DNA of 51,610 nt from Saprospiraceae bacterium (lineage in GTDB: Bacteria; Bacteroidota; Bacteroidia; Chitinophagales; Saprospiraceae): the NCBI GenBank assembly GCA_013214355.1, contig JABSSL010000100.1:1-51610 (forward strand), written 5' to 3'. This document shows, piece by piece, positions 1 to 12,000 of the stretch (positions within the stretch are counted from its first letter, which is position 1; each line of letters starts with the position of its first letter). The position numbers were made by a program, and so were the translations under genes. The notes beneath the pieces were generated by a model, which was not told where the DNA came from, searched no databases, and was given only the letters and a program-made list of their open reading frames with translations.

Positions 1-490
1 TCTCTTGATTTTTGGCCCCTTTTGATATTACTTTTGCCATAGGTCGAGGATTGTAGGTTTGTTTGTCGTAATTCAAAAATACAAACCTTGGCCTACTTCT
101 CCTCTCGCATCTTTATGCAACAACGCCGTTTAATTTTCATTATATATAGGCTATCATCAAGGGTTTTAAAATGTGCTTTAGGAAACGTCTAGAGTGCACT
201 TCAAAATTATTTCTAATGGAAAAATGGGGGATTTTCAAATAGAACAGGACAATAAAAAAAGCAAGATCTATAAGGGCGCCAATCAGGATAGCCGAAGTGA
301 CTAACAGTCTATATTGCAGTCACGCCCTAGAATTACCAATTGCCATTCGAAGCCGACCGGCCAGGCAGGAATAGTTTTGAGATACGCTCTAATACTGTAC
401 AGAATAAAATTAATATTAAAATCGGATTTATTCAAGAGTTTTCCGAGTTCTTCCAAGAAGTTTATTCCATAATCCAGAATTGGGATAAAG
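1..490. other. Intergenic DNA with no supported gene
   Basis: I see no convincing coding region here. The only reading frame of any length (340-573, plus strand) runs through a hairpin and a tRNA fragment and has no recognisable protein character. A promoter-like pair, TTG at 5-7 and TACTTTTG at 29-36 with a 21-nt spacer, fits the Bacteroidota pattern, but no gene follows it. The left edge of the ATPase/tRNA-Lys cassette array begins near 491. Confidence 0.5.
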
Positions 491-529
491 AAAGCCGCAA
501 ATCACTCTTCATTAGCGATTTACGGCTTT
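491..529 (-). terminator. Terminator-like hairpin before tRNA-Lys fragment A
   Basis: The arms AAAGCCG (491-497) and CGGCTTT (523-529) pair, and the stem continues with AAATC/GATTT after one mismatch. Read on the minus strand it lies 8 nt beyond a degenerate tRNA-Lys 3' end. The three similar hairpins at 2598, 4712 and 6709 occupy the same position relative to their tRNA fragments, so this is probably a relic tRNA terminator. Confidence 0.55.
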
Positions 530-537
530 TGCTTTCG

Positions 538-700
538 GTGATTCGGCTGGGGTCAAATCTTTCCTCACAATAAGCTAATAATCAAACTCTTGTTGTAAAC
601 ACATGCTCAAAACTTAGAAATAAAGCAGAAGTAAATTTTCGATTTAACACCAAAAATAAGCTCTAATTTTCATTCTTATTTGGGCAAGTTCTCTCCTAAC
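538..700. repeat. Cassette boundary repeat A (tRNA-Lys 3' fragment plus shared leader)
   Basis: The repeat starts with a 15-nt copy of the tRNA-Lys 3' end with one mismatch (538-552, GTGATTCGGCTGGGG). About 145 nt follow that align closely with 4769-4915, including the shared strings CTTAGAAATAAAG and AGAAGTAAATTTTCGATTT. The first part also matches the copy at 2754. It is the leftmost of five such boundaries. It lies on the 3' side of the minus-strand ATPase gene, whereas the equivalent copies at 2754 and 4755 lie upstream of plus-strand ATPase genes. Confidence 0.75.
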
Positions 701-756
701 AAATATAAAGGGAAACAATCCTTTACTATTGGGTAAGTTTCACCGCAGGACTATGT

Positions 757-791
757 TTGGCGGAATCGGCTTAAAAAGCCGTGATTCCGCC
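757..791. promoter_or_regulatory. Inverted repeat GGCGGAATC/GATTCCGCC, probable relic operator or terminator
   Basis: GGCGGAATC (759-767) pairs with GATTCCGCC (783-791). An inner GGCTT/AAGCC extends the stem, with a two-base bulge. It lies about 65 bp beyond the stop codon of the minus-strand ATPase, so it could terminate that gene. It also sits where boundary repeats A and C lead into operator repeats in the third cassette (TTTGGCGGAATC here, TTTGGCGAAATC at 4973). That makes a vestigial operator for a plus-strand gene equally possible. There is no clear T-tract on the minus-strand side. Confidence 0.45.
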
Positions 792-856
792 CAATATAAA
801 AGTCGCAAGGTGGGTCGTTCAGGGTATGTTGAGCAGAGGCAAATTTTGCAGATTGT

Positions 857-2281
857 CTAGAACAAGTCATCCATTCCAAGCGAATTATCAATAAGTCCCA
901 GGCTATGCTTATTATGCCTTAAGCCGAAAGTTGTTACTACTACTAAAAATAGCTGTTTTTTGGTTTTTGATAGCTGTCGGAAAATACTGCGTTTTCGTCT
1001 TAGTTGCCCAGCCACTTCTTTAGTTAAACTGAACTCATCATTATAAAATTTGACCTCACAGATGGATATTGCATTATCTGCCCGATCAATAAGCAGGTCT
1101 ATTTGAACCCCTTCTTTCTCATCTGTCGGTTTTGAAAAAAAACTGAAGTGTCTAGTATGAACTCCCGCAATTCCCAGCGCAGTCTTAATTTTGTCCACAT
1201 GCTGTAGACAGATATTTTCGTAGGCATAGCCACTCCATGATTTCCAAGATTGGGTTTGACTCAACTGCTGCCAATTTCCTGATTCGTTGGCCGGCAGGTT
1301 CTTGATATACTTCAAATAGAACAGGGAGTAATTATCAGTCAATCGAAAGAGCGCATCCTTTTTTTTCTTGTTGAGGGGAACATAGGTGGTTATGAATCCT
1401 GATTGTTCCAACTCCTTTAAGATTGTACTTATTCCCCCACCATCTTTAAGTTTGGATTTCGCCACCAATTGAGTGCGACTGAGGCCTTTCCAAGCAGAAG
1501 CTAAGGTCTCGACTATTAGTTCGTAACGTTCTGGTCGTACAAATAACGAGCTGTATAAATTATCAAATTCTGTTCGTAGGAGTCCTTGTGGATCGAAGCA
1601 AATCTCATCAATATTTTGCACCGCTGTTTTGCCTCCTTCCACCTGATCCAAATAGTGGGGAATTCCCCCCATTGTCATGTAAAGCTGCAGCAATTGATAG
1701 CGATCAAAAGTAATATTTCTATATTCGAAGTAGGCTTCAGTCTCAGATAAGGAAAAGGGTTGAAGTGAAATCTTTCGAGTTACTCGATTGTGTAATCCGC
1801 CTTTATCATTAATAATTTTCTTTATCATCCATGCCGTTGCCGAACCACAGATTACGACGACAATATTACTTCTCGAAGCAAAACTATTCCAGAAGTAACT
1901 AAACCCAGTCAGAAAGTCCGACTTAGCGGTGGCCACCCAAGGTAATTCATCAATAAAAACTACCTTCTTCTTTTCCGGTTCACCTAATGCTTCCAAATAG
2001 AGCTTCAATTCATGAAATGCGGCAAGCCAATCCTTGGGTATGGTTTCAATAGGATCAAATTGCCTTTTTGCCTCCTTTAGACTATAAGTGAAGTTTCGTA
2101 GTTGCTGCTCCAAATTGCCATCCTTTAACCCAACCATTTCAAAGTTCATCCTATCTTTGAAAAAAGATCGAATCAAGTAGGTCTTCCCCACTCTTCTTCT
2201 GCCAATTACGGCTATCAACTCCGGCTTTTTGGAGGCCATCGCCTTTTTGAGAATTTCCAGCTCTTTTGTTCTTCCTATCAT
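857..2281 (-). CDS. Archaeal-type P-loop ATPase with C-terminal PD-(D/E)XK-like (DUF234-type) module, copy 1
   Basis: This 474-residue protein is a paralogue of the two ATPases that follow. The Walker A motif GRRRVGKT is near residue 27 and the Walker B motif VVFIDELPW follows at about 105. A sensor-like strand ends in CGSATAW, and a winged-helix-like region spans roughly 250-320. The C-terminal motif QIDLLIDR...CEVKFY fits the D...ExK core of PD-(D/E)XK nucleases. The reading frame extends upstream to a TTG at 2332, but ATG at 2281 gives MIGR at the N-terminus and matches the paralogues in length (474, 479 and 478), so I chose it. The longer version would overlap the promoter repeat. Unlike its paralogues it lies on the minus strand within its cassette. 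The family is widespread in archaea and Bacteroidota and its biological role is unsettled. Nuclease activity is inferred from the motif only. Confidence 0.85.
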   Translation of the reverse strand: MIGRTKELEILKKAMASKKPELIAVIGRRRVGKTYLIRSFFKDRMNFEMVGLKDGNLEQQLRNFTYSLKEAKRQFDPIETIPKDWLAAFHELKLYLEALGEPEKKKVVFIDELPWVATAKSDFLTGFSYFWNSFASRSNIVVVICGSATAWMIKKIINDKGGLHNRVTRKISLQPFSLSETEAYFEYRNITFDRYQLLQLYMTMGGIPHYLDQVEGGKTAVQNIDEICFDPQGLLRTEFDNLYSSLFVRPERYELIVETLASAWKGLSRTQLVAKSKLKDGGGISTILKELEQSGFITTYVPLNKKKKDALFRLTDNYSLFYLKYIKNLPANESGNWQQLSQTQSWKSWSGYAYENICLQHVDKIKTALGIAGVHTRHFSFFSKPTDEKEGVQIDLLIDRADNAISICEVKFYNDEFSLTKEVAGQLRRKRSIFRQLSKTKKQLFLVVVTTFGLRHNKHSLGLIDNSLGMDDLF

Positions 2282-2296
2282 ATAACATCTTATAAC

Positions 2297-2385
2297 TTGC
2301 GGAATCATACTCAAAATACAAACTTTCCGCAACTTTTAATCCTTAAAATTCGCGAAAAGACATGATTTGCAATGACATTCCGCCA
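2297..2385 (-). promoter_or_regulatory. Paired inverted repeats in the promoter of ATPase 1
   Basis: A perfect inverted repeat, TTGCGGAA (2297-2304) and TTCCGCAA (2325-2332), is separated by 20 nt and ends 15 nt before the ATG. A degenerate second pair, TTCGCGAA (2349-2356) and TTCCGCCA (2378-2385), lies 52-53 bp further upstream. The same two-copy arrangement precedes the other two ATPases. The proximal half-site continues as GCGGAATCA (2299-2307), identical to nine bases at the tRNA-Lys 3' end. The spacing of about 2.5 helical turns suggests a protein-binding operator, possibly bound by the ATPase itself (inference). Confidence 0.6.
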
Positions 2386-2597
2386 GATTAAACAATCAAG
2401 ATGATAACTCCTCTCCAGTTCGATAACCAGTATCATTATGGAACTGTGCTTACACAAACTTGATAATTGGCCAAAAGTGTTTGTAATAATGCTTAGAAAA
2501 AAGCAGGGTGATAATGGGAAGAAATGGTGAACTACGGAGAAAAATCAGCGTAATTTGAAGAAAGTTCAAACCCTATCAGAAAAAGAATAAAAAACAA

Positions 2598-2632
2598 ACG
2601 CATAATTATTTGAATAACAAACAATTATGCGT
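2598..2632 (-). terminator. Terminator hairpin before tRNA-Lys fragment B1
   Basis: A perfect 10-bp stem is formed by ACGCATAATT (2598-2607) and AATTATGCGT (2623-2632). On the minus strand it is followed by TTTGTTTTTTATT, a good intrinsic-terminator tail. It lies 8 nt from the tRNA-Lys 3' fragment at 2641 and corresponds to the hairpins at 491, 4712 and 6709. Confidence 0.7.
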
Positions 2633-2640
2633 GTAAGACA

Positions 2641-2753
2641 GTGATTCCCCTGGGGCTTCCCGACACCCCTTATTTTTACCAATGACGATCGGGATAAACT
2701 TCTCGCCCCAGCGAAAACAAAAAAGCCCCAAGCTTTTGCTTGAGGCTTTTTTT
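2641..2753. repeat. 113-nt tRNA-Lys 3'-end/terminator unit, copy B1
   Basis: It begins with a one-mismatch copy of the tRNA-Lys 3' end (2641-2657) and ends with an intrinsic terminator (2721-2753; arms AAAAGCCCCAAGC and GCTTGAGGCTTTT). The unit aligns along its whole length with 6754-6867, which directly abuts the intact tRNA-Lys gene. Shared internal blocks include ATCGGGATAAACTTCTCGCC. Here, however, only a tRNA fragment (2754) follows instead of a whole tRNA. This is a clear duplication of the region downstream of the tRNA. Confidence 0.8.
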
Positions 2754-2850
2754 GTGATTCCGCTGAGATCATATATTTCCTCACAATAATCTATTAATCA
2801 GGTTATTATTATCATGGCACTCGTATAACTTAGAAATAAAATAGGCCGAA
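2754..2850. repeat. Cassette boundary repeat B2 (tRNA-Lys 3' fragment plus leader)
   Basis: GTGATTCCGCTG at 2754-2765 matches the end of tRNA-Lys. It is followed by a leader resembling those at 553 and 4769 (TTTCCTCACAAT, then CTTAGAAATAAA). Similarity fades after about 2850. This boundary lies upstream of the plus-strand ATPase at 3122. Confidence 0.65.
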
Positions 2851-3012
2851 AAACTCTACTTTTTGATCAAATTTCTTGAATATCCTCTGAATTCGTTCTA
2901 GAATTAGAGGATATTGGAGCCATGGGCCAGTCTACAATTCCATTACTCCCGAACACCTTAATTGCGTGCTCAAAATTTGAAAGTCAATGTGATGACGAGC
3001 ATCTATCAGTCG

Positions 3013-3098
3013 TCGGAAACTTCACGCTAAAGCATAGATTCCGAAGTTTATTAAATTTAATTATTGTCGGAATCTTTATATATTCATCTATATTCCGA
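3013..3098 (+). promoter_or_regulatory. Paired inverted repeats in the promoter of ATPase 2
   Basis: TCGGAAA (3013-3019) pairs with ATTCCGA (3038-3044), and TCGGAAT (3067-3073) pairs with ATTCCGA (3092-3098). Both have 18-nt spacers and the copies are 54 bp apart. The two inner half-sites also form a perfect 8-bp repeat, GATTCCGA (3037-3044) with TCGGAATC (3067-3074). Seven of those bases are exactly the tRNA-Lys acceptor stem. The array ends 23 nt before the ATG at 3122. A binding role is inferred from the symmetry and its repetition at the paralogues. Confidence 0.65.
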
Positions 3099-3121
3099 AG
3101 CTTATCACGAGAAATATCTTT

Positions 3122-4561
3122 ATGAAGAATAAATTCATCGGCCGAAAATCTGAACAAGAAATACTGCAATCTGCATTATCCTCTGACGATGCAGAGATGA
3201 TTTCCATCATTGGACGACGTCGGGTTGGCAAAACTTTCTTGGTAGACAGTGTATATGGCGGAAGAATTAACTTTGAGATTTCAGGAATTCAGAATGCAGA
3301 AGGTAACGAACAACTTAGAAATTTTGCACAACGAATTAAGGAGTTCTTCCCAAGAGCTGTCCTTGTCCAGACACCCAAGGATTGGTTGGAGGCTTTCTTC
3401 TTGTTAATTGAATACCTGAAGCAGGAAAAGCAAAAGCAAAAATTAGTTGTGTTTCTTGATGAAGTGCCATGGTTAGCTACGCATAAATCTGGCTTCTTAA
3501 GAGGTCTCAGTTATTTTTGGAATTCCTGGGCCGTTAAACAAAATATTGTTGTAGTTCTTTGTGGATCAGCTGCATCTTGGATGATTCGTAAGATCTTGAA
3601 GGATAGAGGGGGACTCCACAACAGGGTTACCAAGCGCATTCGGCTTAAACCGTTTAATCTTGCTGAGACTGAAGATTTCCTGCTAAGTCGCGGTATTTCG
3701 TTCAATCGTTACCAATTAGTGCAACTATATATGGCCATGGGCGGGATTCCTCATTATCTTAAGGAAATAAAGCAAGGTCAAAGTGCTGTACAAAATATCA
3801 ATAGAATCTGCTTCGGTGAGGACGGCTTACTCCTTGATGAATTCCAAAGCCTTTACCCTGCTCTATTTGATCATTCCAACTATCATATCGCCATCATTAG
3901 GGCACTAGCTAGTAAATATTCCGGAATGACCCGAACAGAGATACTCGATGCATCAAAGCTACCTGACGGAGGGCGAGTAACTCGTGTTCTTGAAGAACTT
4001 ACAGAATCTGGTTTTATACAGCCTTATCCTACATTTGGAAAACGCAAGAAAGACAAGCTATTTCGACTAATAGATGAATACTCTCTTTTCTATTTGCGAT
4101 TTATTGAAAGTAATGTGCACGATAGTCAAGATGCCTGGGGAGCCTTAAGTCAAACTCAATCCTACAAGGTTTGGACCGGTTATGCATTCGAAAACATTTG
4201 CTTAAAGCACACTAGTCAGATCAAGAAGGCTTTGGGAATCAGTGGAGTCTACTCTATTACTTCTTCTTTTTTCAAAAAACACACAAGCACTGAAAAAGGT
4301 ACTCAGATAGATCTACTAATCGATCGGAATGACCATATCATTAACCTAATTGAAACCAAGTTTTATAATACTGAATTCACTATTACCAAGGACTATGCAG
4401 AAAAGCTCCGTGAGAAACTTCGTATTTTTCAGGAGTCTACTAAAACTAGAAAACAATTGTTTCTCACCTTAATAACCACCTTCGGGTTAAGACACAATAA
4501 ACATAGCTTGGGACTTATCAACTCAGAATTAGATATGGACATGCTCTTTGAAAAAACATAA
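3122..4561 (+). CDS. Archaeal-type P-loop ATPase with C-terminal PD-(D/E)XK-like (DUF234-type) module, copy 2
   Basis: This protein has 479 residues. Walker A GRRRVGKT is at 31-38 and Walker B FLDEVPW is at 111-117, with acidic residues D113 and E114. The sensor-like LCGSAASW lies at about 146-153. A winged-helix-like segment at about 255-320 precedes a C-terminal module. In that module YAFENIC (about 354-360), D397 in QIDLLID and E411/K413 in ETKFY form a PD-(D/E)XK-like core. The start ATG fits the N-terminal NKFIGR seen in the family. The protein could be a DNA-acting ATPase/nuclease or a regulator. The sequence shows only the architecture, with no recombinase or toxin domain beside it. 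No partner gene is present in the cassette, so it probably acts alone or on host components. Confidence 0.87.
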   Translation: MKNKFIGRKSEQEILQSALSSDDAEMISIIGRRRVGKTFLVDSVYGGRINFEISGIQNAEGNEQLRNFAQRIKEFFPRAVLVQTPKDWLEAFFLLIEYLKQEKQKQKLVVFLDEVPWLATHKSGFLRGLSYFWNSWAVKQNIVVVLCGSAASWMIRKILKDRGGLHNRVTKRIRLKPFNLAETEDFLLSRGISFNRYQLVQLYMAMGGIPHYLKEIKQGQSAVQNINRICFGEDGLLLDEFQSLYPALFDHSNYHIAIIRALASKYSGMTRTEILDASKLPDGGRVTRVLEELTESGFIQPYPTFGKRKKDKLFRLIDEYSLFYLRFIESNVHDSQDAWGALSQTQSYKVWTGYAFENICLKHTSQIKKALGISGVYSITSSFFKKHTSTEKGTQIDLLIDRNDHIINLIETKFYNTEFTITKDYAEKLREKLRIFQESTKTRKQLFLTLITTFGLRHNKHSLGLINSELDMDMLFEKT

Positions 4562-4711
4562 AGCCGAAATTTCCGAAATCCCCTAGTTTTCGAGCTGAAA
4601 ATACCTCAGAAGAAAATGAGGTAGATAGGGCGAGAAGTGTTAAGCAAAGGATAGAAATCAAGGCAATTAAATGGTAGTTCGAACCCTTTCAGAAATAGCC
4701 CAAAAAAACAA

Positions 4712-4746
4712 ACGCGTAATCACTTGAATAACAAATGATTACGCGT
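4712..4746 (-). terminator. Terminator hairpin before tRNA-Lys fragment C
   Basis: A perfect 11-bp stem is formed by ACGCGTAATCA (4712-4722) and TGATTACGCGT (4736-4746). On the minus strand the tail is TTTGTTTTTTTG. It lies 8 nt from the tRNA fragment at 4755. It could also help end transcription of ATPase 2, about 150 bp upstream. Confidence 0.7.
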
Positions 4747-4754
4747 CCATGAAA

Positions 4755-4915
4755 GTGATTCCGCTGGGATCAAATCTTTCTTCACAATGAATTAGTAATC
4801 AGACTTTTGTTATAAACACACGCTAAAACCTTAGAAATAAAGTAGAAGTAAATTTTCGATTTGATGCCTAAATCAAGCTCTAACGTTCACATTCTATGCG
4901 AATAAGTTTACCCTC
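4755..4915. repeat. Cassette boundary repeat C (tRNA-Lys 3' fragment plus shared leader)
   Basis: GTGATTCCGCTGGG (4755-4768) is an exact 14-nt copy of the tRNA-Lys 3' end. The following roughly 145 nt align with boundary A (553-700). It separates ATPase 2 from ATPase 3 and leads into the promoter repeats of ATPase 3. Confidence 0.78.
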
Positions 4916-4975
4916 ACACATCTCTTAATCAGGGCTTCTCATATTAATTAAGCTTTTCTTTATTTAAATATTTTT

Positions 4976-5060
4976 GGCGAAATCTCCTAAGAAAGATCCA
5001 ATTCCGCCTTTATTTGGTGAATATCTCGGCGAAATCTCTTATTTTTGTTTATATTTCGCC
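4976..5060 (+). promoter_or_regulatory. Paired inverted repeats in the promoter of ATPase 3
   Basis: GGCGAAAT (4976-4983) pairs with ATTCCGCC (5001-5008, one mismatch), and GGCGAAAT (5028-5035) pairs perfectly with ATTTCGCC (5053-5060). Both have 17-nt spacers and the copies are 52 bp apart. The array stops 12 nt before the ATG at 5073. The half-site differs from those at ATPases 1 and 2, but the geometry is the same. Confidence 0.65.
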
Positions 5061-5072
5061 AAAGAACCTGTT

Positions 5073-6509
5073 ATGAATCCATCCTTTATCGGCCGAGAAA
5101 AAGAAACTACGGTACTTGCAAATGCCCTAGAATCCAATGAATCAGAGATGGTTGCTGTTATTGGTAGAAGACGTGTCGGCAAAACGTTCCTAGTTAAGGA
5201 GACTTATAAATCAGAAATCGCCTTTGAAATTACAGGGCTTCAAGAAGTAGATTTAGAAAAACAATTAGATCATTTCAGCTTTACACTACAGCGATATACT
5301 AAGAGTCCTGTGCCTTTGCAAAAACCAAGCAATTGGCTAGAAGCCTTTCAAATGTTAGTGCTCTATTTAGATAATCTCCAGCTTCAAGAAAAAAAAGTAA
5401 TCTTTTTTGATGAGGTTCCATGGATGGCGACTAATAAATCAGACTTTCTCACCGGATTAGGATTTTTCTGGAATAGCTGGGCAGTCAACCAAAACATAGT
5501 CGTAGTCATCTGTGGTTCCGCCGCTTCATGGATGATTGACAAAGTGGTAAACAATCGAGGGGGGCTACACAATAGAATTACAAAGCGTCTTTTCCTGGAG
5601 CCTTTTAATTTAGCTGAGACCAAGGCCTTTCTAAATAGTCGGAATATTTTTTTTAATCATTATCAAATTGTTGAGATTTATATGGCACTGGGAGGTATCC
5701 CGCATTATCTGAAAGAAGTCCAGGCAGATAAAAGTGCTATTCAAAATATTGATAGTATCTGTTTCAGTCGAGGAGGATTGCTTAGGGATGAATTCGACAG
5801 GTTGTACCCATCACTTTTTGCAAACGCAGATAGACATATTGCTGTGATTAGGGCATTATCAAGATCTAGGCAGGGCTTAACAAGACAAAACTTAGTCAAA
5901 TTGGGGAGATTATCTGAAGGAGGAAATACGACTAAGGTATTAATGGAATTAGAGCAATCTGGGTTTATTACTTCATATTTCCCTTTTGGTAAAAAGAAAA
6001 AGGATAAACTATATCGCTTAACAGATGAATACTCTCTGTTCTATTTACAATTCATAGAAGATAAGTCCAAAGAGGGTAGCCAAACGTGGCAGCACCTTAG
6101 CCAAACCCAGTCTTATAAAACATGGAGTGGCTATGCTTTTGAAAATATTTGCTTAAAACATATTCCGCAAATCAAGAAAGCGCTGGGAATAGCAGGAGTC
6201 TATTCCAAAGCTTCTTCCTTTGTAAAAAAAGGAACTGAAATGGACAAAGGCACTCAAATAGATTTGCTTATTGATAGAAATGATAAAGTCATCAATTTAT
6301 TTGAAATAAAATTTTATAGCACGGCATTCAGCCTATCAGCAGTTGATGCTCAAAACGTGAGAGAGAAAATCCGGATATTTCAAGAGGTTACCAATACTCG
6401 GAAACATATCATGCCAACGATGATTACCACATTTGGATTGAAATCGAACAAACATAGTTTAGGGCTAATCAATCAAGTTTTGAAATTAGATGATTTGTTC
6501 GAAGAGTGA
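5073..6509 (+). CDS. Archaeal-type P-loop ATPase with C-terminal PD-(D/E)XK-like (DUF234-type) module, copy 3
   Basis: The ATG at 5073 gives 478 residues starting MNPSFIGREKE, in line with both paralogues. A longer frame from a TTG at 4974 would translate the promoter repeats and is rejected. The Walker A motif GRRRVGKT is followed by Walker B VIFFDEVPW and the sensor-like ICGSAASW. A winged-helix-like region and the C-terminal QIDLLIDR...FEIKFY PD-(D/E)XK-like core complete the protein. Identity with copies 1 and 2 is visible along the whole length and is highest in the ATPase core and in the stretch SQTQSYKTWSGYAFENICLK. This is the cassette nearest the intact tRNA-Lys, so under serial addition it would be the youngest. 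Its function is unknown, as for its paralogues. Confidence 0.87.
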   Translation: MNPSFIGREKETTVLANALESNESEMVAVIGRRRVGKTFLVKETYKSEIAFEITGLQEVDLEKQLDHFSFTLQRYTKSPVPLQKPSNWLEAFQMLVLYLDNLQLQEKKVIFFDEVPWMATNKSDFLTGLGFFWNSWAVNQNIVVVICGSAASWMIDKVVNNRGGLHNRITKRLFLEPFNLAETKAFLNSRNIFFNHYQIVEIYMALGGIPHYLKEVQADKSAIQNIDSICFSRGGLLRDEFDRLYPSLFANADRHIAVIRALSRSRQGLTRQNLVKLGRLSEGGNTTKVLMELEQSGFITSYFPFGKKKKDKLYRLTDEYSLFYLQFIEDKSKEGSQTWQHLSQTQSYKTWSGYAFENICLKHIPQIKKALGIAGVYSKASSFVKKGTEMDKGTQIDLLIDRNDKVINLFEIKFYSTAFSLSAVDAQNVREKIRIFQEVTNTRKHIMPTMITTFGLKSNKHSLGLINQVLKLDDLFEE

Positions 6510-6708
6510 ACTTTTTACGCTAGTAGCAGAAATTAATAACAAACACTTCATCTTGAGCAAGTGTCGGACTCTTAGGAAACAGAATCAAATTTGATCATTC
6601 TTACTTAGAAAAATTCAGGCCAACAATGGTACGTAATGGAGTGTAAGGGGGAGAAAAAAGAGGAAATAGGAGATCGTTCGAGTCCTAACTCAATACATCT
6701 AAAACAAA

Positions 6709-6747
6709 AAATCCGTAATCAACTTATATTCAATTAATTACGGATTT
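6709..6747 (-). terminator. Terminator hairpin before tRNA-Lys fragment D
   Basis: AAATCCGTAAT (6709-6719) pairs with ATTACGGATTT (6737-6747). Minus-strand reading gives the tail ATTTTTTGTTTT, typical of intrinsic terminators. It lies 6 nt from the tRNA-Lys fragment at 6754 and is the fourth member of the series at 491, 2598 and 4712. Confidence 0.7.
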
Positions 6748-6753
6748 AAAAAG

Positions 6754-6867
6754 GTGATTCCGCTGGGGCTTCCCGATATACCTTATCTCCGCCAATTACA
6801 ATCGGGATAAACTTCTCGCCCTGGCGGAAACACAAAAGCCCCAAGCTTTCGCTTGAGGCTTTTCTCG
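6754..6867. repeat. 114-nt tRNA-Lys 3'-end/terminator unit, copy D
   Basis: It starts with an exact 17-nt copy of the tRNA-Lys 3' end (6754-6770, GTGATTCCGCTGGGGCT) and ends at the discriminator base of the real tRNA gene. It aligns fully with 2641-2753. The tRNA end is therefore present twice here, 114 nt apart, as expected for a short duplication or an att-like pair. Confidence 0.82.
6834..6863 (-). terminator. Terminator of tRNA-Lys
   Basis: AAAAGCCCCAAGC and GCTTGAGGCTTTT flank a 4-nt loop, with a T-rich tail on the minus strand. It lies immediately downstream of the minus-strand tRNA-Lys gene. A second copy is at 2721-2753. Confidence 0.75.
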
Positions 6868-6940
6868 TGATTCCGCTGGGGCTCGAACCCAGGACCCCTT
6901 GATTAAAAGTCAAGTGCTCTACCAACTGAGCTACGGAATC
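6868..6940 (-). tRNA. tRNA-Lys (anticodon TTT)
   Basis: The minus-strand sequence folds as a standard 73-nt tRNA. The 7-bp acceptor is GATTCCG/CGGAATC. The D-arm is GCTC..GAGC, the anticodon stem CTTGA/TCAAG holds CTTTTAA (anticodon TTT), and the T-arm is CTGGG-TTCGAGC-CCCAG. The discriminator base is A and CCA is not encoded. The gene is intact and presumably functional. Partial copies of its 3' end at 538, 2641, 2754, 4755 and 6754 mark it as the focus of the cassette array. Confidence 0.96.
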
Positions 6941-6958
6941 TTTAGAAAGTGGGAAGTA

Positions 6959-6966
6959 CAAAATTA
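6959..6966 (-). promoter_or_regulatory. Promoter -7 element (TAATTTTG) for tRNA-Lys
   Basis: An exact Bacteroidota TAnnTTTG element on the minus strand lies 18 nt upstream of the mature tRNA, allowing a leader of roughly 11-15 nt. No clear TTG is present at the -33 position. Confidence 0.55.
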
Positions 6967-7180
6967 GAAGGTGAAAACTATTACTACGAATGGGAACAAA
7001 ATCCCTATTTCAACCTTCTTTATTCTTACTTCATATATTGCCTTTCGTCTAAGGCGATGCAAATATACGAGCAAAAAACAAAAATGCAAGCCTTACTGTA
7101 CTTTTTTTGGGAGATTAATTTCTAGAACTTGAACATCAGGATATTAGAAAAAGTTCCCCACAAAAGTTGCCACTTTTAGA

Positions 7181-7873
7181 CTATTGGGGTGGAGTAGCTG
7201 ACTCTATCGCTTGCCAGAAGGAATCAAAATCTAGATAATTTGGAATAACTTGGGTAGCGCCCTGATTTAGGAGTACCTCTTGGTCATTTGAACGCCGTAC
7301 ACCAACAAAATCCATATTTAAATTGCGGGTGGTGGTAACATCCCAGGTAGCGTCACCGATATAGATGATCTTTTCGATTTCTTCGTGATGTTTCAGAGCC
7401 GGCTGGGTGACAGATTCAATGATGGATTCCCGGGTCCAGTGGCCATCGGCGCCACTGAAGAAGATGGTGTCCAAGGATATACCGACGTGTTTTAGTTTCA
7501 CTCGAGCGGGACGCTCCCAGCCGCCCGTGGCAATACCAAGCACACAGTCAGATTGGGCACGAAGCCGATCAATGGCTTCTCGGGCACCGGGCACTTCTCG
7601 GAACTCCTGGGGTTGTGTCTGTCGTTTGGCTTCGATATTCGCAACAAATTGGGCGCAGAAGGAAGCCATTTCTTTGGGATCGGGCCGCCGCTGAAAGTGT
7701 TCTTGGATGACCGCATCAAAGATGGTCGTATCAGATACCGCAGGGTATCGTCGCCAATCTATAGAAGGAAAAGGCAAGCCATATACTTCTTCGTAGGTAT
7801 CGGCAAAACACTGACTGTCAACTTTGTTGGAGTAGACAAGTGTTCCGTCTATATCAAAAATGATCAATTTCAT
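7181..7873 (-). CDS. HAD-superfamily hydrolase (phosphoglycolate phosphatase-like)
   Basis: This 230-residue cytoplasmic phosphatase has motif I FDIDGTL at residues 6-12 (nucleophile D7 and D9) and motif II in IATGG. A basic motif lies around ARVKLKH and motif IV in IYIGDATWDV. A helical cap of about 90 residues sits between motifs I and II, as in subfamily IA (phosphoglycolate phosphatase/pyrophosphatase types). The substrate cannot be read from the sequence. It begins 6 nt after the stop codon of the DNA polymerase IV gene and is probably co-transcribed with it. A role in nucleotide clean-up would fit but is only inference. Confidence 0.85.
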   Translation of the reverse strand: MKLIIFDIDGTLVYSNKVDSQCFADTYEEVYGLPFPSIDWRRYPAVSDTTIFDAVIQEHFQRRPDPKEMASFCAQFVANIEAKRQTQPQEFREVPGAREAIDRLRAQSDCVLGIATGGWERPARVKLKHVGISLDTIFFSGADGHWTRESIIESVTQPALKHHEEIEKIIYIGDATWDVTTTRNLNMDFVGVRRSNDQEVLLNQGATQVIPNYLDFDSFWQAIESATPPQ

Positions 7874-7879
7874 TTGCTT

Positions 7880-8974
7880 CTATTCTTCTTCGTCATTTTC
7901 TCCAAAGTCAAAAGAGAGTTGAATCCCTTCTCCTTGTATTTCTTTGGATAAGTTAGAAATGGAGACCCCCAGTAGTCGAACACTCGGAATCTCTTCTCTG
8001 TTCTGTAAGATCAATTCGTGAGTGATATTTTCGAGTAGCTTCAGATCTCGAATTTCACTGGAAAAAGAACGGCTCCTGGTGATCACTTTAAAATCTGGGG
8101 ATTTGGCTTTGAGGGTAACCGTACGGCCGTAATTATCCGATTTTTCCATGTAGCGGAAAACTATCCCTGCTAGGTAGCTTAACTTCTCCTTCATGTCCTC
8201 GATTCGGTTGATATCCTCTCTGTAAGTGCGTTCCGCTCCGATAGACTTTCGGATGCGATTCGGGTTTACTGCTCGACGATCGTCGGCCCGTACAATCCGG
8301 TAATAATGCCGACCCGCCTTGCCAAAACGAGTGACCAGTTCGATTTCAGAAAGTGCCTTCAGTTCTTTTCCTGTAAACACCCCCATTCGCTTCATTTTTT
8401 CGGCAGTCACTTTTCCAATCCCATGAAACTTCTTGATCGGAAGCGATTCCAAAAAGGCCAAAGCTTCGTCTGGAGTAATTACTTTGATACCGTCAGGCTT
8501 ATTGATATCTGAGGCTACCTTAGCCAAAAATTTGTTGAACGACACACCGGCGGAAGCCGTAAGTTGTGTTTCTTCTTTGACCTTCCGGCGAATTTCTTCA
8601 GCAATTAAAGTCGCCGATTTCATTCCTTTTTTGTTTTCACTGACATCTAGAAAAGCCTCATCTAGTGACAAGGGTTCTACCAAATCGGTATACTCATGAA
8701 AAATGGCCCGAATTTGCTGAGAGACCTCCCGATAAACATCGAAACGAGATCGCACAAAAATTAAGGCTGGACAAAGCCGTTGGGCAGTAACACTAGGCAT
8801 CGCAGATCGCACACCGAAAGCTCGCGCTTCGTAGCTGGCAGAAGCCACGACGCCGCGCATTCCCGCACCACCTACTGCCACAGGCTTACCCCGCAATTCT
8901 GGCTGATCCCGTTGCTCCACAGATGCATAGAAAGCATCCATGTCAATATGTATAATCTTACGATTTGCCAACAC
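7880..8974 (-). CDS. dinB: DNA polymerase IV (Y-family translesion polymerase)
   Basis: This enzyme copies past damaged template bases with low fidelity. The catalytic-core motifs are clear: IHIDMDAFYASVEQ near the N-terminus (first metal-binding Asp) and SLDEAFLDVS (second acidic pair). Helix-hairpin-helix/thumb and little-finger regions follow, ending in LLGVSISNL and an acidic tail. The frame is open up to 9013, but that start would be an unsupported TTG. A GTG at 8974 or a TTG at 8971 gives the family's usual N-terminus (LANRKIIHIDMD) and a normal length of about 364 residues. A TACCTTTG element at 8979-8986 places the transcript start almost at these codons, so the mRNA may be leaderless. 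No LexA-type box was recognised. Confidence 0.93.
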   Translation of the reverse strand: MLANRKIIHIDMDAFYASVEQRDQPELRGKPVAVGGAGMRGVVASASYEARAFGVRSAMPSVTAQRLCPALIFVRSRFDVYREVSQQIRAIFHEYTDLVEPLSLDEAFLDVSENKKGMKSATLIAEEIRRKVKEETQLTASAGVSFNKFLAKVASDINKPDGIKVITPDEALAFLESLPIKKFHGIGKVTAEKMKRMGVFTGKELKALSEIELVTRFGKAGRHYYRIVRADDRRAVNPNRIRKSIGAERTYREDINRIEDMKEKLSYLAGIVFRYMEKSDNYGRTVTLKAKSPDFKVITRSRSFSSEIRDLKLLENITHELILQNREEIPSVRLLGVSISNLSKEIQGEGIQLSFDFGENDEEE

Positions 8975-8978
8975 GCCA

Positions 8979-8986
8979 CAAAGGTA
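8979..8986 (-). promoter_or_regulatory. Promoter -7 element (TACCTTTG) for dinB
   Basis: This is an exact TAnnTTTG match on the minus strand. The nearest upstream TTG (9011-9013) is 24 nt away, longer than the usual 18-21. The element falls 4 nt before the likely GTG start at 8974. Confidence 0.4.
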
Positions 8987-9022
8987 GCTAAATCGACTGA
9001 TCCTTCGGATCAATTAGTCGTC

Positions 9023-12000
9023 TCATTGCTTACTCAACTGTAAATTGAGCTGCTCCGTGGGGCTACTTAATCTTAGATGATACAAACCTGCCGGCCAGTC
9101 ATCGATGCCTAATTCAATACGCTGTTGGCCTGCCTCCATTCTCCGAACTTCCTTAGATAATACCTGTCCGGCAGTATTTAGCCATTGGAAAGTTACCAAA
9201 CCAGACTCAGGAACGTAATAGTCCACATAGACATGGTCATCTACCACTGGATTAGGGTAAATCTGTAGCTTATTCTTAGCATCATATAGGGCGCTAATCA
9301 TCTCGTGGCGATTGACCGTTCCATCGTAATCCACTTGTGCTAATCGATAGTAATTTACGCCTGGTAACGGACGCTGATCTGCAAAACTATACCGCTGCTC
9401 GACGAAACTATTACCTGCCCCTTTTACCTGCCCAATGACGTCAAACTTTCTTCCATCTGCTGATCGTTCCACCAAAAAATGAGCATTATTCTCCTCCACA
9501 CTAGTTGTCCAATCCAGCCGAATCCCATTGGGAGGATCAGTAGCCACTTCAAATTCTAATAATGCGACTGGAAGCAAGGCATTGGTACCCGTAATAGAAA
9601 CCTCTTTAAAATTTTCACTGAGATCCCCGCAGAAGCCGATGGTGAGCATTTTTGCTTCAAAGGCTGCCCGATCTAAACCAAGGAAAGAATCTAGACTAAA
9701 TCCTACTGGAAAAGAGAAGCCATAAACCTGATAGTCCCCGGGGACATATTCGCGCAGATCTGCTACTGCTTCAAAGCCAACTATCTTTCCCGTTGCCTGA
9801 TCAAAAACGGCATAGGTGTAAGCGAAATCATCATTCGGCGGAACCATTCCGACATAGGCATTGCCTCCCGACGGTCCTTGAATCTGTATCCGATAGTCAC
9901 CAAAAGTCAGCGCAAAGGTCACCAATACATACTCTTTTCTCGCTTCCAACTCTACTTTCATTTCATTGGTTACTGAAACACTGCCCGAGATGAAATGAGA
10001 ACTGGAGGCCATCCAATTGAAGCAAGGATCCGCAGGTTCATACGGAGCCTCGTAGAGATTGGCCAGATAGTAGGTGGTGTGGTCGACCTCTGGCAACTGA
10101 AAAATATATTCCCCCTTCTTATTAACCTGGAAGGTTTGTGTAAAAAATGCGGTGGGATAACTAAAACTAAAGCAACTTCCACTATTGGAGGTAGTCAAAT
10201 TTGCTTTCGGAGTGAGTGGGGTAAAGTTCAAATTAATCTCCTCTAGAGGTGTACCATAATCTGGCGCCAAATCCAACAAGAGCGCTTCTGTACCCCATTC
10301 TTCACTTACCGCATTAGTGGGACTTATGGTACTTCCTTCTGCATAGCACTCCCCTCCGATTTTTATCCTAGCATCATTTACATCGAAGAAGATATTATTA
10401 GCTGCCTGAATTAGTATTCTTCCAGTACTGGTAAAGACTTCTGGCATCGGGAAGGTAAAAGTACCCGTATTGGGAACCTCCTCTCCTAGTACAATCGGAA
10501 AAGATTCTCCATCATTGGCTGAAAACAAGATATTTACCCGATCACAGTGAATTGGCGCCTGGTTGGTTTTAGCTACGTCCCATTCTACTGTAATAGGATC
10601 ACCAGGAAGCCCCGTCCAGGAAGTAGGTTCATTAAAGGACGTTATCAGAAAAGGACCACTCTCGCCATGCACTTCCACTTCTACCTCATCCGAACCTAGT
10701 CCCCCTCCTCCCACATGATTATCCCTCACCGTAAAGCGGAAGGTCATGGTACGAGCTTGCTGGGGAAGCAACTCTCCTTTGTCCGTGGCATTACCTAAGA
10801 TCGCAGACCAGCGCGGAAAAGTTCTAGTAACCGAAGTATTGGGTGCAAAACTCCTAAAGAGCGGTGCTCCATTTTCTCCCTCTCGATTGCTGACATCAAA
10901 AGGGGATTCCTCTAATAGTCCCTGTGTTCCCAGATCATATTGTTCCCAGCAATAGGTCAATTTATCCGTTTCTATATCATCTGCCTCTCCCGTTAGGTAA
11001 AAGGGCGTCCCTTTTGGAATCAAGTAGTGCTGGCCAAACGGATTGGCAAATGCCCGTGGTGGAGTATTACCAGTAGGCTGTCGTTCCATGCAATCTTGGA
11101 TCCGTTCTTGTTGCAGGAATTGATGAATCGCCTCGACGCTAGCAATGTGAAAATAATTGTCTAAGGTTTGACTGACATCATCATCAGAACACCGACCGGC
11201 ATAGGACATAATGGTCGATCCACTACCCGGTTCATAAGCATATTCCGAGTCGTATTGCCCTGGTCGGCCGCAGCTGCCATCTGCTCCATTGAAAGTATGA
11301 AGCGCCCCAAACATGTGCCCGATCTCGTGCGCGAGTTGTCCAATCCAATGGCTACCCTGCGGATCGGCTGTTCCGATTCCTCCTCCTGCCTTGAAAGGTG
11401 CATCTAGCTGTTGATCTCCATCGATGTCTATAACCTGGTCATCCCCCACCACTCCAACGAAGGCACTCCCGCCAATATTCCTTCCTGAGACAAGGTGACC
11501 AAGGTCAAAGTTTTCAGGATGAAAAATCCCTTCCTCAATCAATTCTCCGATAGCTACCATAGCTTCACTACTGGGTCCGAGGTCGTCGATTGGAAAAGGG
11601 TCAGCAGACTTATTCAGATAAGCGTAAGCTTCCTGTAAGACAAAACGGATGGAAAGGTCTGTTTCAAAAATGGCATTTATGCTATTGACATCCGCTGCCA
11701 TGGCGGCAATCACCGCCCCTAGAACTGGCGTACCATTTGTTCGGGCTTCGGCATACTCTCCGTCAGCTAGCATAGCCAAATTAAAGATGAACAATTCCTC
11801 ACCAATACTTACTTTGTTCTTTGCGGTAGTGGCCTGGACATAATCTGGCTTAAAGAGTAAATCTTCCGCCAGGACCAGCACTTCATGTTCGCCATCACCG
11901 TAGTAGACCCGGTAGTCGGTATCGGCCGCAGGCTCTATGTACATCCAACCTCTAGCAGTAGCTATGATCGCTTGGATACCATAGGGGGAAACCAACAGAC

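Follow-up and report, generated by a model that had tools for sequence, protein, structure and literature searches.

Integrative elements at the 3' ends of tRNA genes regenerate the tRNA on insertion and leave repeats of its 3' end, and stacking of such elements occurs. Free-standing homing endonucleases of phages are nuclease genes that spread via break repair. Examples of the latter are found in PMC2988022 and PMC13096335. In Torulaspora and Lachancea yeasts, WHO elements at FBA1 replace the 3' end of this gene and form clusters (PMC7282813). Literature on the bacterial families PDC-S27 and PDC-S01 presents them as fusions of an ATPase with a PD-(D/E)XK domain and as abundant putative defence candidates, experimental validation being pending for most such candidate families (PMC12988326); both are frequent in rumen genomes (PMC13356809). 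Here we analyse three PDC-S27 genes that alternate with copies of a tRNA-Lys 3' end in a contig of 51,610 nt from a Saprospiraceae bacterium (JABSSL010000100.1, assembly GCA_013214355.1). The window is this whole contig, and the stack may extend beyond base 1.

Like a WHO element as described in PMC7282813, a PDC-S27 cassette places one nuclease gene beside its own target, and clustering by serial insertion is seen in the layout of the window and at one further locus (L040). WHO elements belong to yeasts, encode an HO/intein-type nuclease with demonstrated cleavage and have FBA1 as main target, whereas PDC-S27 cassettes are bacterial, encode an ATPase with a PD-(D/E)XK-like module that is predicted to cut, and have several targets including tRNA genes and 5' ends. 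With integrase-bearing tRNA islands the window shares the direct repeats of the tRNA 3' end; those elements encode an integrase, whereas PDC-S27 cassettes encode none and use the ends of protein genes too. The account of PDC-S27 in PMC12988326 presents a defence candidate, and its relevant passages do not mention gene-end replacement. What appears to set the PDC-S27 cassettes apart from the phage endonucleases is that they carry a substitute for the end of their target. Gene-end replacement by such cassettes in bacteria was not found among the results listed in a literature search, which most subscription literature lay outside.

The cassette stack at tRNA-Lys

The target gene, an intact tRNA-Lys (anticodon ttt), lies on the minus strand at 6867–6940. 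Five partial copies of its 3' end, likewise on the minus strand, are found at 538–553, 2641–2656, 2754–2769, 4755–4770 and 6754–6769, with 2, 1, 3, 2 and 0 mismatches in 16 nt, respectively. A scan of the window with the last 16 nt of the tRNA at no more than two mismatches returned 538, 2641, 4755, 6754 and the tRNA itself, all on the minus strand and none on the plus strand; 200 dinucleotide shuffles of 1–6860 gave no match at this threshold. With up to three mismatches in the region 1–9000, plus-strand matches appear at 2705 and 6818 too, both of them inverted arms belonging to the 113-nt units described below. Between the fragments lie gene 1 (857–2281, minus strand; open reading frame (ORF) 857–2332), gene 2 (3122–4561, plus) and gene 3 (5073–6509, plus; ORF 4974–6509), the starts of genes 1 and 3 being set by alignment. 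Gene 1 is thus oriented opposite to the other two. These three full-length genes are the only ORFs of at least 80 aa between the fragments. No tyrosine or serine recombinase is among the ORFs of this size within the cassettes; the genomes were not searched for helpers.

The fragments share their surroundings. A hairpin lies outside the outermost copy (491–530), and hairpins with T-rich tails adjoin the copies at 2641 (2598–2633), 4755 (4712–4746) and 6754 (6711–6746), all on the minus strand, the latter three also being repeats of one another. In the fold test each of these hairpins, as well as the terminator beside 2754, folded better than 200 of 200 shuffles. A 113-nt unit composed of a terminator hairpin, a fold-back with a core resembling repetitive extragenic palindromes (REP) and the tRNA-Lys 3' end occurs twice on the minus strand, at 6754–6866 next to the tRNA and at 2641–2753; the hairpin of the tRNA-adjacent unit likewise beats its shuffles. 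At their left ends the cassettes have about 135 nt in common, starting with the tRNA copy (538–672, plus strand, with further copies at 2754–2888, 61%, and 4755–4889, 84%), and at their right ends a common hairpin region. An earlier note on this DNA, made from the letters alone, had described five tRNA fragments alternating with three paralogous ATPase/nuclease-like genes, hairpins beside four of the fragments, two fragments joined in a 113-nt unit with a terminator, the intact tRNA at the right edge and no integrase inside the cassettes. All of this was recovered here.

The same note had proposed that single-gene elements were added one by one at the tRNA 3' end and had suggested looking for an empty site in relatives. 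Such a site is present in the congener G001, where tRNA-Lys has no ATPase gene, 8000 nt contain no further copy of its 3' end with 3/16 mismatches or fewer, and half of the 113-nt unit remains. Both this site and the layout of the window support serial addition. The G001 terminator is slightly nearer to that of the displaced inner unit at 2641–2753 (7 mismatches) than to that of the tRNA-adjacent unit (10 mismatches; 6 gap columns each). This hints, by a small margin, that later cassettes may have entered between the tRNA and its old terminator, and replacement of the end of tRNA-Lys itself is faintly suggested. The tRNA-Lys contig of the congener G002 starts inside the tRNA and offers no usable ATPase-free comparison. 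Near matches to the tRNA end in congeners lie in unrelated sequence (L252, L254) or at loci where a check for tRNAs gave none (L256, L258).

Units that fold back around a constant REP-like core (GAGAAGTTTATCCCGAT ... ATCGGGAAG) were observed, apart from 2641–2753 and 6754–6866 of the window, at L014 (1640–2024) and L243 (1490–1570). Their outer arms match the 3' end of the adjoining tRNA, which is Lys or Leu in the present genome (G000) and Arg in G001. At no more than one mismatch, all four occurrences of the core in G000 are at tRNA-Lys or tRNA-Leu; at two mismatches five more places are added. A reversed control pattern gave three.

All three window proteins match ATPase_2 (PF01637) in their N-terminal half, together with other AAA models of Pfam, and C-terminal matches to PDDEXK_4, DUF234 or DUF4143 stay below the curated cut-offs. 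The PADLOC profile PDC-S27 covers nearly the full length of each protein (E = 3.8e-195, 2.8e-197 and 3.1e-198), which places them in that family of ATPase–PD-(D/E)XK fusions. No NCBIfam model matched, and no solved structure was related by sequence at E 0.01. Neither an intein nor a LAGLIDADG model is among the Pfam matches, so that the nuclease is not of the HO/intein type. PD-(D/E)XK nucleases carry a D...ExK motif. In a family set of 175 full-length proteins, picked by similarity and length and therefore favouring intact genes, five contain an internal stop, and 169 of the 170 others retain Walker A and B as well as all three nuclease residues (D397, E411, K413). The fused C-terminal domain is probably the one that cuts DNA. 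The middle of the protein may be a winged-helix domain, as suggested by one weak Pfam match (HTH_34, E 0.078).

Five PDC-S27 copies are present in this genome, three in the window and one each on the contigs C179 and C203; within the genus, G001, G002 and G003 have 1, 0 and 4 matches. A family match was obtained in 30 of 100 searched genomes (own included), four of which have at least 16. The best 80 of 567 named loci belong mainly to Bacteroidota, many of them to Saprospiraceae or Chitinophagaceae, and some carry other labels. A phage origin was considered and rejected, as the viral collection held 15 relatives with at most 41% identity. Repeated 8-mers occur within 200 nt upstream of 166 of 178 family genes compared to 99 of 184 control stretches. 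The repeated motifs, found just upstream of most family genes, are often TTTGGC- or GGCGGAAT-like; an example is the set of inverted and direct repeats upstream of gene 2 (3035–3105, no strand assigned), taken as operator-like. Palindromes near the ATPase genes were also tried as element ends and rejected, sharing with the downstream side being 22 against a permutation mean of 16 and maximum of 26. Since this sharing is not above permutation, we read the upstream palindromes and repeats as putative operators.

Gene ends around the cassettes

The C179 copy (locus L012) is situated at the 3' end of a DUF1553 gene, the last 73 nt of which recur on the far side with 95% identity, ending at the stop codon. 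Altogether four relatives lie between copies of a protein-gene end, which is the 3' end at L012 and L194 and the 5' end at L062 and L040. In these four cassettes the ATPase is the sole ORF of at least 80 aa, apart from an antisense ORF within the L040 gene. Both in the window and at four other loci, an ATPase cassette thus contains a single gene. At L040 the ATPase cassette sits between two fragments, and the intact polysaccharide-synthesis gene follows past a second cassette with YhcG pieces and a short RecG-C-terminal-like ORF. PDC-S27 and PDC-S02 (YhcG) cassettes are accordingly stacked there (4732–10051) at the 5' end of one gene, with three end copies. The C203 copy adjoins an apparent tRNA 3' end cut by the contig start, whose last 16 nt recur before the gene. 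ARAGORN calls no tRNA at this position and the Rfam tRNA match is truncated and sub-threshold (18.6 bits, E 0.28), for which reason we name it tRNA-like. The targets thus comprise tRNA-Lys, a tRNA-like end and DUF1553, polymerase, MBL-fold and polysaccharide-synthesis genes, with flanking repeats of about 16 to about 350 aligned nt.

Flanks were compared for 168 ATPase loci with enough flank and for 266 control genes of the same loci. Repeats of at least 60 bits flank 15 of the former and four of the latter (Fisher P = 3e-4), a contrast somewhat flattered by the longer ATPase flanks (3773 vs 2627 nt in total on average) and by the window supplying two of the 15. In an ungapped test, 16 of 179 loci scored, compared to 0 of 1777 flank-swapped pairs at equal score and 4 of 179 in inverted orientation; protein-level matches from flank to flank were obtained at 15 of 160 ATPase and 5 of 205 control loci, some of them paralogues. 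The 15 repeats belong to the window (2 genes), L062, L194, L012, L040, L083, L102, L060, L174, L026, L096, L213, L037 and L055. The four control matches are the YhcG cassette beside the ATPase cassette of L040, an ankyrin-repeat gene at the end of an MFS gene (L093), a pair of similar genes (L064) and one match at no recognised gene end (L083). At L093 (520–3475) the ankyrin-repeat gene lies between the MFS gene 3' end and a second, mostly silently diverged copy of it.

The nature of the duplicated ends was examined by a codon test on four pairs, namely those of L062, L194 and L012 and, at L040, copy 2 against the intact gene, a pair that flanks the YhcG cassette and not the ATPase cassette. 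The pairs differ by 36 silent and 17 replacing changes, compared to about 79% replacing expected (P = 3e-13; single pairs excluding L040, P = 1e-4, 5e-5 and 0.03). L083, with similar genes nearby, and L093, not an ATPase cassette, were left out of the total and lean to a silent excess too. A dead copy formed in place would drift regardless of codons, which these pairs do not. The excess at silent sites means that the ends diverged while both were working genes, one of them from another lineage.

For L194 the direction of the exchange can be followed. In genome G095 the ATPase adjoins the 3' terminus of a DNA polymerase III alpha-like gene; the congener G063 has the polymerase gene and its neighbour without the ATPase. 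Of 20 positions outside the stop codon, G063 shares 16 with the displaced fragment and 5 with the intact copy; of 60 positions past the repeat on the gene-body side, it shares 57 with the intact copy and 11 with the fragment. A block of 51 nt inside the repeat is identical in both copies. Among the repeat positions on the body side of this block at which G063 sides with one of the copies, 14 of 19 favour the intact one, and on the stop side 2 of 2 favour the fragment. The simplest interpretation places an exchange within the 51-nt block, by which the gene would consist of a native body and a foreign tail and the fragment would be the native tail. At this one locus, a foreign end brought in and a native end displaced, as for WHO elements, are thus seen against G063.

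Another comparison bears on movement. The C203 cassette and a cassette of the congener G003 (L216) both adjoin matching copies of the tRNA-like end. Their DNA is 92% identical inside and 73–77% in longer stretches of the flanks, where the order is partly different. Between G000 and G003 the synonymous difference per site (pS) amounts to 0.14 in the ATPase gene, whereas dinB, the sole host gene compared, shows 0.79. The simplest reading of these values is that the cassette moved between lineages long after their split, and recent lateral movement of this one cassette is our best inference. L216 is a short contig of a genome that is 80% complete; the divergence of its flanks argues against contamination from a strain like G000. 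The identity declines gradually in the noncoding edges, and the nearest end copies are up to about 50 nt away on one side and about 250 nt on the other. About 200 nt past the right border of the C203 cassette, an ORF with RNase-H-like and IS66-type transposase domains was noticed (L013, 2206–4839), which is absent from the G003 counterpart.

A link of the family to tRNA genes, as anticipated in the earlier note, holds for the window, L090 and L087 and gives way elsewhere to a link with gene ends in general. With ARAGORN, only 11 distinct loci of about 180 (window included) yield a tRNA or tmRNA, whose 3' end faces the ATPase in 10 of the 11 (P = 0.006; L034 and L156 counted once). Outside the window, end copies are located beyond the ATPase (L090) or near the tRNA (L087). 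A tRNA as family-wide rule was rejected, given the few loci with a tRNA and the lack of an end copy in most of them. In this genome, 3'-end copies of tRNA-Met, -Pro, -Val and -Leu occur without an ATPase, and for 52 distinct tRNAs tested here and in other genomes an end copy was found downstream of seven and upstream of none. The copy alone is hence not the mark of the family. At L090 (1294–6748) a tRNA-Gly is followed by a perfect 20-nt copy of its 3' end, and a third, weaker copy (4/20 mismatches) lies past the ATPase gene, about 5 kb off.

Proposed homing and its rivals

On balance, and with reserve, we read each cassette as an integrase-free mobile element of one gene that spreads in a homing-like manner with end replacement. 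The PDC-S27 protein would cleave an unoccupied target close to the gene's end, or help a break to arise there. Repair by recombination with cassette-bearing DNA would then insert the cassette and provide the target with an equivalent foreign end, whereby the target gene would stay whole and the native end would be left on the far side as a fragment. Repeated events at one site would give stacks such as that at tRNA-Lys. Three parts of this picture are inferred, namely that the protein cuts, that an occupied site is shielded from it and that repair does the copying. That the ATPase-nuclease itself drives mobility is plausible and the variant we favour. With GIY-YIG genes of like anatomy at hand (see below), homing is the most economical model.

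Placement by a site-specific recombinase or another mobile element acting in trans is a rather unlikely alternative in our view; the gene-end copies would then serve as attachment (att) sites, with the ATPase as a passenger such as a phage-defence gene. Direct repeats at tRNA 3' ends are classic att sites, the window cassettes contain no other ORF of at least 80 aa, and the identical block of L194 could serve as an att core. Unrelated targets, the use of 5' as well as 3' ends and the wide range of repeat lengths are, however, unlike one integrase with one core. Ordinary homologous recombination, by which one crossover would add a foreign gene end together with the neighbouring gene while a passive nuclease is retained for defence, agrees with the switch inside the identical block of L194 and with the ankyrin-repeat gene of L093. 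We nevertheless consider it unlikely, because each ATPase cassette holds a single gene, cassettes stack at the same site and the homology at tRNAs is very short, to which the enrichment of flanking repeats can be added with the caveats that one of the controls is itself a YhcG nuclease cassette and that the ATPase flanks are longer. Local tandem duplication or decay of paralogues after insertion probably accounts for some loci, such as L083. As the general origin of the fragments it appears highly improbable, because the end copies differ chiefly at silent sites though one is a fragment, and because a congener identifies the native end at L194.

Several observations weigh against homing with end replacement. 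The tRNA copies comprise 13–16 matching nt, which is short for RecA-type recombination and weakens the model at tRNAs unless longer homology outside took part. No flanking repeat of at least 60 bits was found at 153 of the 168 loci, and among the repeats obtained, those of L096, L213, L037 and L055 are duplicated operator-like palindromes near the gene, those of L102, L060, L174 and L026 correspond to no recognised gene end, and that of L083 is ambiguous. Eight of the 11 loci with a tRNA or tmRNA have no copy of its end. An equal end duplication surrounds a gene that is no nuclease, the ankyrin-repeat gene of L093. The chimaera is a single case, and the more distant congener G083 supports it more weakly, siding on the body side with the intact copy at 12 and with the fragment at 7 positions. 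Furthermore, the gap from neighbour to target contains other sequence in G063 and G083 (about 0.6 and 1.4 kb), which is missing in G095, so that the site is ATPase-free but not proven to be ancestral. Comparison of L012 with the ATPase-free site of G002 gives weak support at most, and at the YhcG site in G001 the target gene is missing.

If the proposed reading is true, a family with thousands of members entered as candidate antiviral defence (PMC12988326) is at least partly self-spreading DNA, which would change how defence inventories are read. It would also provide a bacterial counterpart of the yeast WHO elements, an explanation for integrase-free tRNA islets and a route by which host gene ends are swapped between species.

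YhcG and GIY-YIG genes of similar anatomy

The YhcG gene of the L040 cassette matches PADLOC PDC-S02. For YhcG, 30 loci were fetched with flanks of up to about 1.5 kb, and flank repeats of at least 45 bits were found at 5 of the 25 testable loci. The clear case is L348 in G002, where the 3' end of an AraC-type gene is duplicated over 258 nt at 97%; in its G000 counterpart (L347) the fragment is mostly lost. At L342 the 3' end of an N6-DNA-methylase gene is duplicated (191 nt, 95%). The repeats of L343 lie in no ORF, and those of L344 stem from a pair of similar genes.

GIY-YIG is a classical family of homing endonucleases. We obtained 50 matches in 13 genomes and loci for 30, some of which are counterparts in sister genomes and not all independent. 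A tRNA is contained in the fetched stretch for 11 of 17 small and 0 of 13 large GIY-YIG genes (P = 2e-4). Three loci of small genes show an exact 15-nt copy of the tRNA 3' end on the far side (tRNA-Asn twice, tRNA-Val). By eye, a broken second copy of tRNA-Glu was recognised as well as one GIY-YIG gene 5' of tRNA-Arg beside a 5' fragment. As a tentative extension, judged from these layouts, PDC-S27, PDC-S02 and the small tRNA-borne GIY-YIG genes might form a broad class of end-replacing homing elements in Bacteroidota and beyond. It is possible, with the same caution, that such elements carry a functional copy of the target end and are propagated by recombination that the nuclease promotes, whereby host genes and tRNAs would constantly exchange their ends.

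A small GIY-YIG gene beside a tRNA end, with that end copied on the far side, was noted at L381/L294 (tRNA-Val), L371 and L376 (tRNA-Asn), L390 (tRNA-Glu) and L368 (tRNA-Arg), and at L390 the start of an apparent second GIY-YIG copy follows in tandem. In the displaced tRNA copies of L286, L294, L371, L376, L390 and L368, REP-like palindromes were seen by eye within a stem-loop. They sit in the D, anticodon or T arm, as if inactivating or marking the copy.

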